Source: Gemmatimonadota bacterium (lineage in GTDB: Bacteria; ARS69). Taken from it: 64,000 nt of DNA. Every line of letters starts with the position of its first letter. Within the stretch, counting starts at the first letter, position 1. The position numbers were made by a program, and so were the translations under genes. Below are positions 44,172 through 59,023 of the stretch, piece by piece. Location: NCBI GenBank assembly GCA_030747075.1, contig JASLLL010000003.1, positions 62,001 through 126,000 on the forward strand, read 5' to 3'. The notes beneath the pieces were generated by a model, which did not search any database, was not told the DNA's origin, and saw nothing but the letters and a program-made list of their open reading frames with translations.

Positions 44172-46463
44172 CTATCTGACGAGCGCGAACTTGCCGGAAG
44201 CCTGATCGGTAATGGTCCCCGATGAGTCGAGCGCCCGGATGGTGTAGACATAGATGCCGCTTTCCATCTCGCCGTGCCAGCGAAACGCAGAGCCCTCCAC
44301 ATTGTTGGGACCCGCCTGATTCCCGTTTCCGGTGAACAGGTCGCCCGCTGTAAACCGCCCTACCGGCTCCCCGGCCAGGCTGTGTACGACAATGCGAACT
44401 TCTGCATCAAGCGTCAGATCATAGCGAAAGCGGAGCTCGTCCCGCCCGGAGAATGCCGGGTTCGGATAAACATGGAACGACAGCAGTCGCGGCCCGGTCC
44501 CCTCCTGTGCACGGAGGAAATACTCGGTCGAGTGAGAGTTGTTGAGCAGGGAGATCTCCGAAGAGGCATAACCCGCATCCAGTCCCTCCAATTGAGCATA
44601 GAAGGTGTGCACCCCTTCATCCCCCGGGAGGGTCTGCCAGTCAAAGGTCATCGGCACGGCTCCGCCCGCCGGGAAGAAGCCGAGGTGCTCGACATCCCCC
44701 AGGAGCATCCCCCCCGCTTGCGGATCACCCTCGAAAAACGAAACCCGGACAGACAGCGTATCCGTGTCCGTTCCCTGATACGAAAGTGTCGACGCTCCGA
44801 AGTTGTGGACACGCGCGGTGATGGGGACCGTATCTCCAGCCTCAAAGTACTCGACTCCCGCGGGGAGCATGACCTCCACCTCCCCCGCCGGGATGGCCAA
44901 GTCTGGTTGGTCGTAGTGAAGAGCCATTCGCGCAAGGCCGGAAACCAGAAGCTGGGCGGAAAGCTTCAGCTGGAGTTCTGAGTTGGGCCGACCGCTGGCA
45001 GGGAAAGTGTTCTCCCAGGTGTCCATGAATGTGTGGTACTGCGGATAGGGGATCTCCATGTCCTCGGTCAGGAGGATGGCGTCCATACCCGCGCTCCAGA
45101 AGCTCGCGTGGTCGCTTCGTGCGAAGAAAGCCACATTCTTGGTGGCCTGAAGCTCGGGAACAAACTGCTGGGCTGTATCGATGATGTAATCGGCCAGCCA
45201 TTCGGAGCCCTCATTGGCGACGACATCGAGACGATTCGTCAGCGCATTGAAACCGACCATGTCCATGTTGAGGACCGCATGCACGGGAGTCCCCTCGGCA
45301 GCCAGTGAGTCCGCGAAGGCTGCCGAGCCCAGGAGCCCCAGTTCCTCTCCCTGAAACGCGACAAAGAGAAGGTCAAAGTCGAACGCCACATTGCCGGCAG
45401 CCAGAATGCGCGCGCACTCCAGAAGACAGCTGATCCCGGATGCGTTGTCATCGGCGCCGGGCGCCGCGTCGTAGCGCCAGTTCCACGAGCAATGGGGGTT
45501 GGCGAGGATGGCGTCGGCTCCTGCATCGCAGTCGCATCCAGGCACCGGGACGGTGCGGGCCGTTTCGCACAGCTCCACAGCGTCACTCCGGAGTCCAATC
45601 GCATCGTAGTGAGCGGTGACCAGTACGGCTCCTGCGTTCGGGGTTGCCGACGGCCAGGTTCCGATGACATTGGAGACGGTCAGCGTGGTGTTGTCCGCTG
45701 TGATCTCAAAGCGATGCGTCGTGACGGAGCCGCTTCCGAGGCTGTTCTCAAGCTCCTGCCCGATGTAGAGCCGCGCGATGTTCTCCGTGCCGGGTTCCGC
45801 CCAGTAACGCGACGAAGGCGCCCCGCTCTCCAGTTCCGCGAGTTCCCGCACATGGGCTTCCAGCCGAACCGGTTCCACGCTGTTGCGGAGCGTCTCCACC
45901 TGCGCACCCGTGCGAAGGTCTGCGGAGGCGTCTACGCTCAGCGCCCGATTCACCGTGGCGGCCCAGGCGGTGTTCGGACCGGGCCGGGAGACGGGAACGG
46001 GCTGCCGGCCGCGATTCAGGATTCGGAACCCGTGCGAACTGCGCCCCGCCAGACGAGCCGGGTCTTCACGGGTGATCTGGACGGCACCTCCGGAGGGGGT
46101 CACCGCGACAGCACGACCCGTTCGAAGCCGGGGGTGCCCTGGCGTCTCCGCATGGGCATAGACGACGCGCTCGCCGGGGCCGACGCTCGCCAGGAAGTTG
46201 GGGCGTGAGCCACTGGGGAGACTGCCGGCCTCCAGCCCGGGGGGAAGTGCAAGAAGCAGCCACCACGCGTCTTCCACCGCCTCACGGTGCAGGACACGCC
46301 ACGCGCCGGGAGCTCTCCCGAACGCCGCGATGGTCTCCTCTGCGACGCGATCAGCCGAGTAGAGATCAAATGCCTCAGGAAGGGGTTCCCCGTGTGCGCC
46401 CGGTACGAAGGACACGAGATGGAGTGCGAGAAGCCCCCCCGCCGCGAACCGAGTCGATCTCAT
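44172..46463 (-). CDS. Secreted M28-family zinc peptidase with FlgD-like C-terminus
   Basis: 763 residues. Signal peptide (1-25), a propeptide-like part to about 225, then the M28 domain with all expected metal and catalytic residues: His285 in TAHYD, Asp338 in GADDNASG, Glu373-Glu374 in GEELGLLGS, Asp401 in NMDMVG and His477 in YHTFMD. An Ig-like region (about 520-665) follows, and the end (YPNPAFSG, WHGEMESGIYVYTIRA) is a FlgD-like C-terminal domain. M28 enzymes are aminopeptidases or carboxypeptidases. A Cys-rich loop CDCDAGADAILANPHC interrupts the catalytic domain and may bind calcium. I use the ATG at 46463, preceded by GAGGGG. Confidence 0.88.
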   Translation of the reverse strand: MRSTRFAAGGLLALHLVSFVPGAHGEPLPEAFDLYSADRVAEETIAAFGRAPGAWRVLHREAVEDAWWLLLALPPGLEAGSLPSGSRPNFLASVGPGERVVYAHAETPGHPRLRTGRAVAVTPSGGAVQITREDPARLAGRSSHGFRILNRGRQPVPVSRPGPNTAWAATVNRALSVDASADLRTGAQVETLRNSVEPVRLEAHVRELAELESGAPSSRYWAEPGTENIARLYIGQELENSLGSGSVTTHRFEITADNTTLTVSNVIGTWPSATPNAGAVLVTAHYDAIGLRSDAVELCETARTVPVPGCDCDAGADAILANPHCSWNWRYDAAPGADDNASGISCLLECARILAAGNVAFDFDLLFVAFQGEELGLLGSAAFADSLAAEGTPVHAVLNMDMVGFNALTNRLDVVANEGSEWLADYIIDTAQQFVPELQATKNVAFFARSDHASFWSAGMDAILLTEDMEIPYPQYHTFMDTWENTFPASGRPNSELQLKLSAQLLVSGLARMALHYDQPDLAIPAGEVEVMLPAGVEYFEAGDTVPITARVHNFGASTLSYQGTDTDTLSVRVSFFEGDPQAGGMLLGDVEHLGFFPAGGAVPMTFDWQTLPGDEGVHTFYAQLEGLDAGYASSEISLLNNSHSTEYFLRAQEGTGPRLLSFHVYPNPAFSGRDELRFRYDLTLDAEVRIVVHSLAGEPVGRFTAGDLFTGNGNQAGPNNVEGSAFRWHGEMESGIYVYTIRALDSSGTITDQASGKFALVR

Positions 46464-46518
46464 GGTGAACCCCTCAAAACGGTGCAGCCGGGGGGATTCC
46501 CGGGTCGCCCGTCTGGAG

Positions 46519-46626: not shown

Positions 46627-47070
46627 TCAGCCGGTGGGGTTGGTCGGGATCTTTCCGCCGCCCTCGGACGGGGTGAAGTAGATCGCCTTGTTCGAGTAGC
46701 TGCTGCGATTCCCGGAAGCGTCCTCCGAAGCGGCCCGATAGTCCACTCGTGAGTGAACCTGATCAAAGTACGAGGCGTCCTGCAGGAGGCTGGAAGACAC
46801 GGCTTCCCAGGTCGTGCCGTGGTCCAGGCTTCTCTGGAGCTCATAGCCGGCGAGGTCCGCCTCGCTGTTCGGCGCCCAGTTGACCCAGAGCGTGTCGTCA
46901 ATCTCGGAGACCGCAAGATTCGACGGCACAGCCGGAGGAGTCAGATCGACCGGCGGATCGTCGTCACCCGGAGGCAGCGTGGAGACGGTGTTGTCGTCGC
47001 CGCCACAGCCGATGAGCGCAAAGCAGAGCAAGCAGGAAAGCGTGAGGGAAATCAGCGTCGGGATCTTCAT
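46627..47070 (-). CDS. FN3-domain lipoprotein
   Basis: 147 residues. Lipoprotein signal ending FALIGC, then an acidic linker (GDDDPPVDLTPPAVP) and one fibronectin type III domain (NLAVSEIDDTLWVNWAPNSEADLAGYELQRS to about 130). It is a small surface or periplasmic binding module of unknown partner. Its FN3 domain is very close to the last FN3 domain of the giant secreted protein, which has WAPNSEADLFGYHVYRR. Start at 47070; the ATG at 47091 would add seven acidic residues before the signal. Confidence 0.75.
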   Translation of the reverse strand: MKIPTLISLTLSCLLCFALIGCGGDDNTVSTLPPGDDDPPVDLTPPAVPSNLAVSEIDDTLWVNWAPNSEADLAGYELQRSLDHGTTWEAVSSSLLQDASYFDQVHSRVDYRAASEDASGNRSSYSNKAIYFTPSEGGGKIPTNPTG

Positions 47071-47325: not shown

Positions 47326-48312
47326 CTATCGGAGGACGCGTACGAGGGCCACTTCAGCCTCGGGGAGGGCCGGGCAGTGAACGAAGTAGACTCCACAGGC
47401 TGCCGGATTCCCCAGGGAAGTCCGTCCATTCCAGAGGAATGTGGTCTCCTCCCCCCTCGCCGTCGGCAGAAGCCTGACAACCCGCCGCCCCACCACATCG
47501 ACAACATCCGCATGGACAGCCTGTTCCGTGGAGGCGGCAAACACAATGCGGACTTCCCCTCCCCTTCCTGCGCGGAACGGATTCGGCGAGACCAGCGAGA
47601 CGGTGCTCTCGTCGGGAGCCACCCTTTGGTTCAGAAGCCGGTCGAACCAGGGCACCAGTCCGGCCACTTCCGTCGGAAGAGGAATGTCGGCGTTCTCGAT
47701 CCCGGGTGAGGAGAGCGCCTCGGGAGGCCCCAGCAGGAAGCGATAGTCCTCGGCGAAGATCTCATGCGGTCGATCCCGGTGGGATGCGGCATGGTGATAT
47801 CGACCGGAGTGCAGCTGGCGAAGGTCCAGGTACTCCTCCCACAGCGTGCTGCCATCCGGGGCAAGTGCGTGCTGCACTATGTGCCCGAGTTCGTGTGCGA
47901 TCGTGGCCGCAAGATGCTCGGGATGCACCTTCCGGAGTCCGGGAGAGAGAAAGACGATGTTCCCTTCACAGCTGGACCGGAGAGTGCCGCGACGCGGATA
48001 CGGGAGAACCACGATGCGTGCGTCGAGGGAGGCTACGCCCGCAGGCGCGGAGGCAATCGCCTCGCGAACCAGCCCGATCTCGAACGGATGAAACGAGCCG
48101 TCCCCCAGAGTGGAGAGTTCGCTGTCCAGAGGATCGGTAACAAGCGGCCAGGAGCGGCCATTCATCACCAGGCACAAGGTCCCGTCGATGAGGGTCGTGT
48201 GTTTGCTCAGGACCTCCTGTGCGTCGATGAGCCGGAGAGAGGCACTTGCGGGGGGAACGGCCCACAGAACGGCGAGCGTAAGCAGGCTCGCGAGGTTGCA
48301 TCTCCTCATCAT
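47326..48312 (-). CDS. Secreted HExxH metallopeptidase with FlgD-like C-terminus
   Basis: 328 residues. Signal peptide (1-25), catalytic domain with His140-Glu141-Leu-Gly-His144 (IAHELGHIVQH), and a downstream RPHEIFAEDYRFLL whose Glu184 or Glu188 could be the third zinc ligand (gluzincin-like). The C-terminal 90 residues are FlgD-like (VSPNPFRAGRGGEVRIVF, GRRVVRLL, CGVYFVHC). I cannot name the peptidase family. GGAGG lies 9 nt before the ATG. Expression should depend on cyclic-di-GMP through the riboswitch at 48346-48440. Confidence 0.78.
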   Translation of the reverse strand: MMRRCNLASLLTLAVLWAVPPASASLRLIDAQEVLSKHTTLIDGTLCLVMNGRSWPLVTDPLDSELSTLGDGSFHPFEIGLVREAIASAPAGVASLDARIVVLPYPRRGTLRSSCEGNIVFLSPGLRKVHPEHLAATIAHELGHIVQHALAPDGSTLWEEYLDLRQLHSGRYHHAASHRDRPHEIFAEDYRFLLGPPEALSSPGIENADIPLPTEVAGLVPWFDRLLNQRVAPDESTVSLVSPNPFRAGRGGEVRIVFAASTEQAVHADVVDVVGRRVVRLLPTARGEETTFLWNGRTSLGNPAACGVYFVHCPALPEAEVALVRVLR

Positions 48313-48345
48313 GCTTGTCCGCCTCCGTCACGCTGTGAACGGCAG

Positions 48346-48440
48346 GCGAAACTTCGGCGGCCCGGCGTTTCCCGAACTCAGTGTGTTCGGGTTCCGTGGC
48401 TTTGCGCGTCCTCGTGCGGACTTGCCCTTGTCGGTCTCGC
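48346..48440 (-). promoter_or_regulatory. Cyclic-di-GMP-I (GEMM) riboswitch aptamer
   Basis: A 95-nt minus-strand element. P1 is GCGAGAC (48440-48434) with GUUUCGC (48352-48346), 7 bp with one G-U. Inside are ACAAGGGCAA, the P2 hairpin GUCC-GCACGA-GGAC, the conserved GCGCAAAGCCACGG, a P3 arm (CCCGAA with UUCGGG) and the closing GCCGGGCCGCCGAAG. These match the GEMM consensus in order and spacing. The ATG of the metallopeptidase is 34 nt downstream. A segment that overlaps P1 (48347-48339) can pair with the ribosome site, so control is probably at translation. Confidence 0.85.
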
Positions 48441-48547
48441 GGACCCGTGGTGAGTCCACCGTCTGCTACCGCAAGGCTCGTGCCGGGTTGAGTGCAGGGG
48501 GTCTCTTCGCACAGCGTGGTCAAACGCAAGAATCACTCAAGGCTGCA

Positions 48548-52813: not shown

Positions 52814-54798
52814 GGTTCACCTCCACTCGGGCGAGGATGGTCCTCCGCCGGGATGAGAGGCAGCAGCGCCGTGGCTCGGCTCGCGCCCTCGGGAGAAGTT
52901 TCCATCCGCAGCGTGCCCCCATGTCTTCGCAGAATGTGCTGGCAGACAGGGAGCCCGAGTCCGGTGCCCCCCGACTTCGTTGAGAAGAACGGATCGAAGA
53001 CTCTCTCTCGAATCGTCAGCGGGACTCCGGGGCCGTCATCTTCGACCACCACACGGACTGCCGGAAGATCTTCGGTGGAATCATCGAAGATCAGCAGGCG
53101 AACCTCCCCCCCCTCCGGCGAAGCCTCTACTCCGTTCAGCGTCAGGTTCAGCACAACTTGCAGGATCTGGTCGCGATCCGCAAGAGGACAGGGCACCTCC
53201 GGGGACGCCTTCACGGAGACCGTCACTCCCCGCTTCGCGGCACGGCCTCCCACCAGATGGGCGGCCCGGTGGAGAATCGAGGAGAGGTCCACCGGTTCAA
53301 GATCGGGTTCCGGGGGCTCAGCGAACATCAGAAGACTCCCCACAATGCGATCCAGCCGGTCCGTCTCCTCCACGATGATGCTGGCCAGTTCCGCATCCTT
53401 CCCGGAGTGCGCCAGACGGGAGAGGAGCACCTCCGCCGAAGTGCGTATTCCCGCAAGCGGGTTTCGGATTTCATGGGCCACGGCGGCCGAAAGGCGCCCC
53501 AGAGCGGCCAGGCGATCGGCGCGCCGAACCTCCTCCTCGGCTTCCACTCGACAGGAGAGGTCGGTGACCAGCGCGAGAACACCCCGTTTGCCGTCGTCTT
53601 CGGGCAGGGCGGAAGTGCGAACGGAGACCGGGACCGGTCGATGACCCGCCCGCGTGAGGTAGGTCTCCACCTCCGCGGAAGGTCCCGGGTCCGCTTCTGC
53701 GCGGGGTGGGCGGAGAAGCGGGATGAAGTGCAGGTTGTCGACAAAGACCTCTTCCAGCGAGCGCCCCACCGGATCGTCGGAAGGGACCCCGAGAATCCGG
53801 CAAAGCGTGGGGTTGGCCAGGACTACCCGGTCCCTGGCGTCGATCTTCAGCAGGCCGCCTCGCAGCGTGGACAGGATTCGATTGTTCTGCTGCTGCGAGG
53901 AACGGAGAGCCTCTCGGGAGGCTTGCGAACGGACTCCATCGGAGACGAGCGCGAGGAGTTTCCGGGTGAACGGCGCTTCTCCTTCAAGAAGAGGGTCCCG
54001 GCCGCTGTCGAACAGAAGGAGAAGACCCGTGACTATCGGATCCTCTCGCAGCAACTTCCAACAGGTCGGGCCGTCGGGCGAAGGGGGAGGCTGATGCGCT
54101 GAGGAAGCATCCAGAGAGACGGGGGCCAGATCCGCGGCCAGCGCCTCCGGGATCTGCCAGGCACCCGACACCTCGTAGGAGTCCCCCCCCCACCGACACA
54201 CGGCCGCCGCCCGGGCACCGAGCGCACGCCCGACGACCTCGGCGAGCAGTGGCCAGAATGTGGCAATCGGTCCCGGGGCAGCCAGGAAGCGCGCGACATC
54301 CTGAAGGCGGGTCGCCTCGGTCAGTTCCCGGGAGAGTGCCCGGTTCTCCGAGCGGAGATCTTCCGACTGCTCCACGACAATCCGGGCGAAGCGGCGTCGT
54401 TCTGCAATGACGCGATCATTGGACTGCTCAAGTTCTCGAACGAACTCGTCCGCCTGGGCGAGATGGCGTCGGCGCTCGAGAATGTCCGTCATGACGGCAA
54501 GAACCTCGGTCCCGTCACTTCCCCAGAGAATGGCGCCGCGCGTCGAGGGACCCGACGCGGCAAACACCACGATCGATTCGCCAGCGTGGGCTTGTGAGGG
54601 ACGAAAGGCCATCCACTGGTCGAGGCCGGGCGATTCCTCGTCAATCAGAAGGACGCCCGCGTAAGGCATGGGGACTTGCTTCAGTGTGCGGTAGACATGG
54701 AGCTGTGCGCGATCTGCGAGAAGGGGAGTCCAGTTGGCGGCGGATCTGCGGAGGTCGGCATGGGGGGTGACGACAGCAACCTGATCACGATCGGTCAT
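52798..54798 (-). CDS. Cytoplasmic sensor histidine kinase (NtrB-like, with PAS)
   Basis: 666 residues without membrane helices. The N-terminus (1-110) is a degenerate receiver-like fold (VAVVTPHADLRRSA, GVLLIDEESPG). A coiled coil follows (115-165), a GAF-like domain (about 170-310), PAS (about 320-420, ILSTLRGGLLKIDARDRVVLANP), then HisKA with His442 in VAHEIRNPL and HATPase (VVLNLTLNGVEA, EDDGPGVP, GTGLGLPV). It should sense an internal signal and phosphorylate the regulator at 51422. Coupled by ATGA to the PilZ gene upstream. Confidence 0.9.
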   Translation of the reverse strand: MTDRDQVAVVTPHADLRRSAANWTPLLADRAQLHVYRTLKQVPMPYAGVLLIDEESPGLDQWMAFRPSQAHAGESIVVFAASGPSTRGAILWGSDGTEVLAVMTDILERRRHLAQADEFVRELEQSNDRVIAERRRFARIVVEQSEDLRSENRALSRELTEATRLQDVARFLAAPGPIATFWPLLAEVVGRALGARAAAVCRWGGDSYEVSGAWQIPEALAADLAPVSLDASSAHQPPPSPDGPTCWKLLREDPIVTGLLLLFDSGRDPLLEGEAPFTRKLLALVSDGVRSQASREALRSSQQQNNRILSTLRGGLLKIDARDRVVLANPTLCRILGVPSDDPVGRSLEEVFVDNLHFIPLLRPPRAEADPGPSAEVETYLTRAGHRPVPVSVRTSALPEDDGKRGVLALVTDLSCRVEAEEEVRRADRLAALGRLSAAVAHEIRNPLAGIRTSAEVLLSRLAHSGKDAELASIIVEETDRLDRIVGSLLMFAEPPEPDLEPVDLSSILHRAAHLVGGRAAKRGVTVSVKASPEVPCPLADRDQILQVVLNLTLNGVEASPEGGEVRLLIFDDSTEDLPAVRVVVEDDGPGVPLTIRERVFDPFFSTKSGGTGLGLPVCQHILRRHGGTLRMETSPEGASRATALLPLIPAEDHPRPSGGEPWPTS

Positions 54799-55505
54799 TC
54801 TCCCTCCGCTTCCCCCTCGGGCTCATCTTGTCGGAGCACTCGCTGGAGAAGATACACGGTGTGCGCAATCCGGTCGTGCGTAGTCTGGTCGAGTCTGGTG
54901 AACTCCGTCGCGAGGAACCAGCCTCCATGAGGCCCCCTGGCGGAGCGGCCGGAGTCCCGGAGAACCTCGGTGCGCAGCGTCAGTGGGGGGCGATCGTCGG
55001 GGAGGGCCAGCGTCAAGTCCAGCAGCGCGCCCTCCGGGTAGAGTTCTGGAGACTCCAGCAGCACGCCGCCAAGGCTCAGATTGACGGTCGTCGCTTCGCA
55101 GGGAGGCCCGGGGACGGGGCTTGACGGGAGCGGTGCATGAGGTTCCACATGGACCGCAATGCCCGCCGCCATGCGATGGTACTCGCGACGCTGAACCGCC
55201 TGCACCCGCCCCTTTGGGGGGGAGACGAGAATCATCGGAATCGGCCCCGGGTACCGCTCTTCAATCCGTGCGGGATAGTCGTAGTGTTCACCCTCATGCG
55301 TGAAGTGAACACGAAGCGGATGTCCGACCGGAATCGGAAGAACACTGGCCCGGAATGACGGGGCGTAGGCTCGAAAACCCCCTTCCACGCATTTCAGTAC
55401 TTTGGTGACATAGTGCCCTTCGAAGGGACCGGTCTCGATGAGGAGCGCAATCCGCTGCAGCGCCTTTGGCACAGGCCCGCTGTCGTCAGGTTGCGCATGG
55501 GTCAT
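54795..55505 (-). CDS. YcgR-like PilZ protein (cyclic-di-GMP effector)
   Basis: 236 residues. The N-terminal 110 residues resemble the YcgR-N/FlgZ split-barrel (FEGHYVTKVLKCVEGGFRAYAPSF). PilZ starts at QRREYHRM (RxxxR) and has TVNLSLGGVLLE (NxSxxG), the two cyclic-di-GMP contact motifs. YcgR-type proteins brake flagellar motors; here the gene lies between an MCP-like gene and a kinase, so it may feed cyclic-di-GMP into that signalling set. Confidence 0.85.
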   Translation of the reverse strand: MTHAQPDDSGPVPKALQRIALLIETGPFEGHYVTKVLKCVEGGFRAYAPSFRASVLPIPVGHPLRVHFTHEGEHYDYPARIEERYPGPIPMILVSPPKGRVQAVQRREYHRMAAGIAVHVEPHAPLPSSPVPGPPCEATTVNLSLGGVLLESPELYPEGALLDLTLALPDDRPPLTLRTEVLRDSGRSARGPHGGWFLATEFTRLDQTTHDRIAHTVYLLQRVLRQDEPEGEAEGE

Positions 55506-58495: not shown

Positions 58496-58876
58496 TCAGG
58501 AGGCGGGCGGCGGCGTGTGGCTCAGGACATACCGATTGATGAGATCCCGGGAGGAGTCGCTCAGTTCCAGGAACGCGCAGGCCACTTCGTAGCGCTCCAC
58601 ATCCCCGGAAGGAGCGTCGGGAAGGGTTCGAACCACAATGGCCTCGACTTCGATGAGTGACGCTTCTTCCGATTCCGTCGGGCCGGGGATCATGAGTGCA
58701 ATGGAGAGCTTGGTCAGCGGTTCGATGAAATGCGGGATCTCCACATAGACACCCCCGGTGGAGATGTTGATCGTGGAGATGGAGACCGTGTCGCCGGAAA
58801 TGGCTCCACCCTCGACCCGTACATCCAACCGGGCGGGGACTCTCTTTGCTGTTCTGCGTTCCGCGGGCGAACTCAT
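58496..58876 (-). CDS. Single-domain PilZ protein
   Basis: 126 residues: ERRTAKRVPARLDVRVEGG gives the RxxxR motif at the start and TINISTGGVYVEI gives NxSxxG, so cyclic-di-GMP binding is likely. It ends YEVACAFLELSDSSRDLINRYVL, a usual PilZ close. The start is the ATG at 58876 with AGAGGGG upstream; a longer in-frame opening to 58999 would overlap the small gene before it and is unlikely. Confidence 0.85.
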   Translation of the reverse strand: MSSPAERRTAKRVPARLDVRVEGGAISGDTVSISTINISTGGVYVEIPHFIEPLTKLSIALMIPGPTESEEASLIEVEAIVVRTLPDAPSGDVERYEVACAFLELSDSSRDLINRYVLSHTPPPAS

Positions 58877-58898
58877 GAACCCCTCTTGGCTGAAGGAC

Positions 58899-58988
58899 CT
58901 ACTTCTTCTTGTGTCGATCCTTGCGCAATCGCTTCTTCCTCTTGTGAGTGGCGATCTTCGTGCGCTTTCGCTTCTTTCCGCTGGGCAT
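58899..58988 (-). CDS. 29-residue basic AURKAIP1/COX24-like protein (candidate ribosomal peptide)
   Basis: The peptide starts MPSGKKRKRTKIATHKRKK, ends LRKDRHKKK and has 17 Lys/Arg residues. This is the invariant pattern of the tiny AURKAIP1/COX24-domain proteins seen in Bacteroidota, Chlorobi and relatives, which resemble the end of mitochondrial ribosomal protein mS38. They are believed to sit in the small ribosomal subunit; that role is known for mS38 and inferred here. GAGGA and AGAGGA lie just before the ATG. It lies between hupB-like and PilZ genes. Confidence 0.85.
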   Translation of the reverse strand: MPSGKKRKRTKIATHKRKKRLRKDRHKKK

Positions 58989-59023
58989 TCCTCTGTCACT
59001 CCTCAAACAGTTCTGTGGTTGCG

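Follow-up and report, generated by a model that had tools for sequence, protein, structure and literature searches.

Does the 64,000-nucleotide stretch of DNA analysed here (the window) carry a cyclic-di-GMP riboswitch in front of a secreted metallopeptidase gene, and how far does this arrangement resemble the one known from Clostridioides difficile, in which a class-I switch of the OFF type governs zmp1/PPEP-1, a peptidase that releases adhesins (PMC6366702)? A sequence-only reading of the window had proposed both the riboswitch and the parallel, and had suggested that surface proteins are cut when cyclic-di-GMP changes.

An orthologous aptamer in four genera

The class-I cyclic-di-GMP (GEMM-I) aptamer lies at 48440-48346 on the minus strand, a strand that the sequence-only reading had not given. 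Its end stands 33 nt from the ATG of the peptidase gene (48312), so the closeness claimed earlier holds while the length (34 nt) needs correction. The parts of the aptamer are as follows.

48346..48440, minus strand: whole class-I aptamer (scores of the leave-one-out covariance model, RF01051 and RF03167)
48434..48440, minus strand: P1 5' strand GCGAGAC, 7/7 pairs with 48352-48346
48346..48352, minus strand: P1 3' strand GUUUCGC, shared with the 5' arm of the hairpin that blocks the Shine-Dalgarno
48426, minus strand: G, equivalent of the ligand-contact base G20 of Vc2 (structural alignment; role from PMC4744006)
48403, minus strand: A, equivalent of Vc2 A47 (structural alignment)
48357, minus strand: C, equivalent of Vc2 C92 (structural alignment)
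C48406 and G48366, minus strand: interhelical C44-G83 pair (structural alignment)
48408..48421, minus strand: P2 stem-loop G-UCC GCACGA GGA-C, without GNRA tetraloop
48359..48400, minus strand: P3 with the extension hairpin CCCGAAC/GUUCGGG (48391-48385 / 48377-48371)

The P1, P2 and P3 helices of class I are thus all present in the window copy, and the elements described before from the letters (the 7-bp P1, the GGGCAA core, GCGCAAAGCC, P2, P3 and the GCCGGGC..GCCGAAG end) all stand where they had been placed. Plus-strand open frames that run across the aptamer (e.g. 47764-48453) are mechanical and were not taken as genes.

No family matched the window aptamer at gathering threshold in the Rfam scan. 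The best sub-threshold family was RF03167 (c-di-GMP-I-GGC; cut-off 59 bits) with 25.7 bits, corresponding to E-values of 6e-4 for the 491 bp searched and 0.082 for the whole window. RF01051, the model with which the sequence-only reading had proposed to check the element, gave 25.0 bits (cut-off 35 bits; E = 0.0107 in the 2.67-Mb genome), the window copy being its sole match at E <= 10 in that genome. Taken alone, this score is suggestive, not decisive, a hint rather than proof, and whether a covariance model recognizes the element at all receives an ambiguous answer from the Rfam model by itself.

The identification becomes decisive because related genomes carry orthologous aptamers. Five genomes of the window's phylum, all from one family, were examined, and three of them besides that of the window contain a single RF01051 match above the 35-bit cut-off (39.1 bits in G001, 35.9 in G002 and 39.7 in G004), each directly before the orthologous peptidase gene, whose product shares 42-44% identity with that of the window. 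The linkage of aptamer and peptidase therefore spans four genera, the window's and three further; in the fifth genome (G003, 82% complete) neither the aptamer nor a full-length peptidase was found. A covariance model built from 17 outgroup aptamers and the three orthologous ones, the window copy being excluded, retrieves the latter with 48.2 bits and, on a rough calibration, E = 5.6e-15 in the window, so the aptamer signal is well beyond chance. P2 and P3-extension arms differ in sequence among the four genomes, and pairing with the own partner nearly always beats cross-genome pairing; the P1 of the orthologues likewise keeps its pairing despite altered sequence. Conversely, no aptamer lies upstream of the peptidase gene at some 30 more distant loci, which come from Eisenbacteria, Krumholzibacteriota, Latescibacterota and further genomes, and the linkage is thus lineage-specific: the aptamer was gained in, or retained only by, the window's lineage.

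The tetraloop on P2, usual in class I, lies outside the ligand binding site. In the structural alignment a GNRA tetraloop is found in 0/4 members of the lineage vs 18/18 outgroup aptamers, and the consensus sequences of RF01051 and RF03167 both have GAAA at this loop. The two usual class-I types carry GNRA or GYRA tetraloops (PMC11218506). To judge from the aligned sequences, the tetraloop-receptor contact seems to have been lost or replaced in this lineage, and ligand affinity may be low as a result. A natural class-I aptamer devoid of the contact would offer a tool for gauging how much that contact matters.

Ligand, expression platform and polarity

The bases that contact the ligand in Vc2 are G20, A47 and C92 (PMC4744006), and their equivalents, together with the C44-G83 pair, are intact in all four lineage genomes. 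Two variant identities were considered and excluded: c-di-GMP-I-GGC, as the RF03167 model has G at position 47 where the window copy has A48403, and c-AMP-GMP (GEMM-Ib), as such types have A at position 20 (G20A) where the window copy has G48426 and the three orthologues also have G. The genome encodes two GGDEF proteins, one of which, a GGEEF protein with an RxxD motif, carries the Asp found in canonical cyclic-di-GMP cyclases, c-AMP-GMP cyclases having Ser at that site (PMC6456294). There are three HD-GYP-family matches in the genome, and both of the two inspected have an HHE...GGGYP-type motif; no EAL phosphodiesterase was found there, HD-GYP being found instead. The window also encodes two PilZ proteins, one of them YcgR-like (54795-55505 and 58496-58999, minus strand), as well as CheA and a FliA-like sigma factor. 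Both PilZ-domain proteins sit in a chemotaxis/flagellar cluster near the riboswitch.

Class-I matches were also seen in 9/47 Eisenbacteria genomes. Among the readable ones of these aptamers (L090-L100), all except L066 have A at position 20 (AGAGCAAAC), L095 being unreadable at the expected place, and several with A20 also have A48G. Many of the A20 aptamers precede genes for secreted FN3-like or type IX cargo. It is tempting to speculate from these sequences that they may represent c-AMP-GMP signalling beyond its known range.

Could the window element be something other than a working cyclic-di-GMP sensor? A chance resemblance within GC-rich DNA finds some room in the modest genome-wide E-value of the Rfam model alone, but it is already refuted by the orthologues, with their identical placement in four genera, and by the leave-one-out score; its probability is negligible. 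That the aptamer is decayed, its fold persisting but the ligand no longer bound, is very unlikely: the sub-threshold Rfam score of the window copy, the missing tetraloop and an A49.C90 mismatch point that way, and C. difficile provides a precedent, since of 16 class-I/II switches predicted in this species 11 are functional and 5 non-regulating (PMC6366702), but all contact bases and helices have been retained in four genera despite diverged flanks and helix sequences. We give only marginally more credit, and still very little, to the sensing of another dinucleotide, be it c-AMP-GMP or whatever the GGC variant binds. This would fit the slightly higher score of RF03167 than of RF01051 on the window copy and the c-AMP-GMP signature of the Eisenbacteria aptamers; against it stand (i), the presence of G20, A47 and C92 in 4/4 lineage members (ii), a main cyclase of the GGEEF type with the canonical Asp (PMC6456294) and (iii), cut-offs that 0/4 members reach for RF03167 and 3/4 for RF01051. 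By sequence and predicted fold, the element belongs to the class-I cyclic-di-GMP riboswitches, within which it represents a divergent lineage that lacks the tetraloop and is kept before a secreted M34-like peptidase gene. Its function as a switch is predicted and very likely, and we are confident, short of certainty, that it controls this peptidase at the level of the leader.

How it would do so depends on the region between the aptamer and the gene.

48318..48350, minus strand: expression platform, a hairpin blocking the Shine-Dalgarno GGAGG (48326-48322), its 5' arm overlapping P1
48556..48583, minus strand: terminator-like hairpin in the interval from the upstream histidine-kinase gene to the riboswitch, at chance level and with a weak T tail

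A platform based on a transcription terminator was rejected, as the terminator scan found none between the aptamer and the gene and the only terminator-like hairpin is the one listed upstream. A scan for sigma-70 promoters found none, the sigma-70 pattern being uninformative for this phylum. When the window RNA is folded, the hairpin that pairs with the Shine-Dalgarno has a 5' arm starting within the P1 3' strand, and when P1 takes this strand the platform loses 8.1 kcal/mol in the window, 7.3 in G001, 4.4 in G004 and 0 in G002. Shuffled platforms reach these values in fractions of 0.024, 0.023, 0.19 and 1.0, respectively (combined p ~0.02). Competition between P1 and the blocking hairpin is thus seen in 3/4 genomes and fails in G002 (ddG 0). 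Constrained folding of a longer RNA gave changes in Shine-Dalgarno access that were inconsistent among the genomes (with no clear trend in G002 and G004), and in the window copy the Shine-Dalgarno is partly paired even when P1 forms.

Because the P1 3' strand overlaps the blocking arm in three genomes, the folding models lead us to lean, with some reserve, towards a translational ON switch. Cyclic-di-GMP produced by the GGDEF proteins and removed by the HD-GYP proteins of the genome would bind the aptamer, which is of the G20/A47/C92 type; binding would close P1, whose 3' strand would then be withheld from the blocking hairpin, and the freed Shine-Dalgarno would raise translation of the peptidase. 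The opposite polarity, in which the ligand lowers peptidase synthesis as for zmp1, whether through pairings missed by simple folding or through Rho-dependent termination, appears rather unlikely. An OFF switch would agree with the class-I switches of C. difficile, which are all OFF including that of zmp1/PPEP-1, with the logic of that species in which low cyclic-di-GMP means surface release (PMC6366702) and with the inconclusive constrained folding in G002 and G004, but the overlap seen in three genomes argues for ON and the leader has no detected terminator.

The peptidase and its neighbours

The gene behind the riboswitch and the two that follow it comprise these features.

47326..48312, minus strand: secreted M34-like HExxH peptidase with a FlgD-like / type IX C-terminal domain
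47881..47895, minus strand: HELGH zinc motif (H140-H144); H, E, G and H invariant in 31 homologues
47761..47763, minus strand: E184 of EIFAED, candidate third zinc ligand, invariant in 31 homologues
47329..47598, minus strand: C-terminal FlgD-like / T9SS-type putative sorting domain (PF13860; PorZ, PorU and FlgD structures)
46627..47070, minus strand: FN3-like lipoprotein gene (lipobox-like IGCGGDD, later TPPAVP), FN3-like by reading, no Pfam match
44172..46466, minus strand: M28 peptidase gene (PF04389, 118 bits)

The product is, as proposed before, a predicted secreted HExxH peptidase, with a signal peptide assigned by reading. H140, E141, H144 and E184 are invariant among the 31 homologues, and E184 is a candidate zinc ligand from its spacing: 44 residues separate it from H140, the same spacing as between H153 and E197 in PPEP-3 (PMC12828418). 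No Pfam or NCBIfam family lies above cut-off on the catalytic domain. This domain was modelled alone from the 31 homologues (pLDDT 94.8), a fold search with the full protein being swamped by the Ig-like C-terminal domain, and its top Foldseek matches in the PDB are mostly M34 peptidases (lethal factor, PPEP-1, -2, -3; E 0.02-1, TM ~0.4). A sequence profile picks lethal factor independently but weakly (E = 0.064). The catalytic Tyr of PPEP, 7 residues before the zinc Glu (Tyr190 and Glu197 in PPEP-3), is absent (Ser177 in the window copy, non-Tyr in the orthologues), and His178, 6 residues before E184, is invariant. On the modelled fold, we assign the protein, putatively, to an M34-like family of distant kinship and do not count it among the PPEPs. 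Such M34-like peptidases (L031-L065) are widespread in Eisenbacteria, Krumholzibacteriota and Latescibacterota with the invariant signature HExGH...H...P.EI.AED; none of the copies scanned has a Pfam family over cut-off, and the C-terminal domain appears degenerate in many Eisenbacteria copies.

In the window's lineage the C-terminal domain matches FlgD_ig, PorZ and PorU; PF13860 (FlgD-like) is above cut-off in two orthologues and TIGR04183 is below cut-off. The genome encodes SprA of the type IX translocon (551 bits summed) and, when searched for the peptidase's FlgD-like C-terminal domain, gives > 100 matches, and for these two reasons type IX export of the peptidase is predicted as likely. 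Together, the two features also mark a large type IX secretome in a small phylum. The peptidase would cross the inner membrane via its signal peptide, its C-terminal domain would probably direct it outwards by the type IX route and, at the cell surface, it would trim or release surface proteins. This last step, the release of surface proteins, we put forward tentatively, at somewhat less than even odds.

In each of the four genomes, the peptidase gene with the riboswitch is followed by the lipoprotein and M28 genes. At the remaining peptidase loci examined, the pair did not turn up within flanks of up to 5 kb, on contigs that were sometimes short. The three genes thus form a conserved cassette seen in this lineage only. 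Because Pro-Pro follows the lipidated Cys in all four lipoproteins (TPPAVP, APPATP, TPPNVP and TPPAAP), the neighbour is a candidate substrate of the peptidase, as a lead only. FN3 domains, too, often begin with Pro-Pro. FliM/FliN-like genes (by reading) lie upstream of the riboswitch in G002 and G004, and the earlier description of a diderm with a polysaccharide locus agrees with matches to UDP-glucose dehydrogenase and glycosyltransferases nearby.

Comparison with known systems

The aptamer shares with Vc2 and RF01051 the P1/P2/P3 architecture, G20, A47, C92, the C44-G83 pair and the leader position, but its four lineage members have no GNRA tetraloop on P2 and the window copy falls below the RF01051 cut-off. 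The base of its P3 and its 3' end (CGCCGGGC-GCCGAAG) closely resemble those of RF03167; it differs from this family by A instead of G at 47, by the absence of the GAAA tetraloop and by scores below 59 bits in 4/4 members. The peptidase resembles M34 and PPEP-1, -2 and -3, its main fold neighbours, by HExxH and a Glu that follows at a distance of 44 residues, the PPEP-3 spacing, but it lacks the PPEP Tyr, has the invariant His178 and carries an added FlgD-like C-terminal domain.

The parallel with C. difficile, in essence, stands: in both cases a class-I aptamer precedes the gene of a secreted zinc peptidase (zmp1/PPEP-1 is CD2830), and PPEP-1 is among the M34 peptidases nearest in fold to the catalytic domain, although the similarity of the folds is weak. 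The two systems differ in that the present one belongs to a diderm with type IX export, has no terminator that we could find, is predicted to be ON rather than OFF and uses an aptamer that other lineages with the peptidase lack; no sequence similarity to PPEP-1 was detected. Because other phyla have the peptidase but no aptamer before it, and because the aptamer is restricted to one lineage and no similarity to PPEP-1 is detected in sequence, the arrangement looks like the product of independent recruitment, not of a shared system. In its most complete form, the scenario would run as follows: in a phylum with type IX secretion, a class-I lineage without the tetraloop came to control a secreted M34-like peptidase, in an event separate from that in C. 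difficile and with the sign of control reversed, so that the peptidase is ON when cyclic-di-GMP is high; the substrate would be the adjacent lipoprotein, cut at TPPAVP in a Pro-Pro stalk that joins the lipid anchor to the FN3-like domain. All of this together is improbable, though worth stating. If true, it would provide a concrete candidate substrate in an uncultured, little-known bacterial phylum, and the shedding of surface proteins would be suggested as a recurrent coupling of cyclic-di-GMP to attachment: in two unrelated lineages, the RNA itself would sense cyclic-di-GMP and directly control a surface protease, the two proteases having similar folds.
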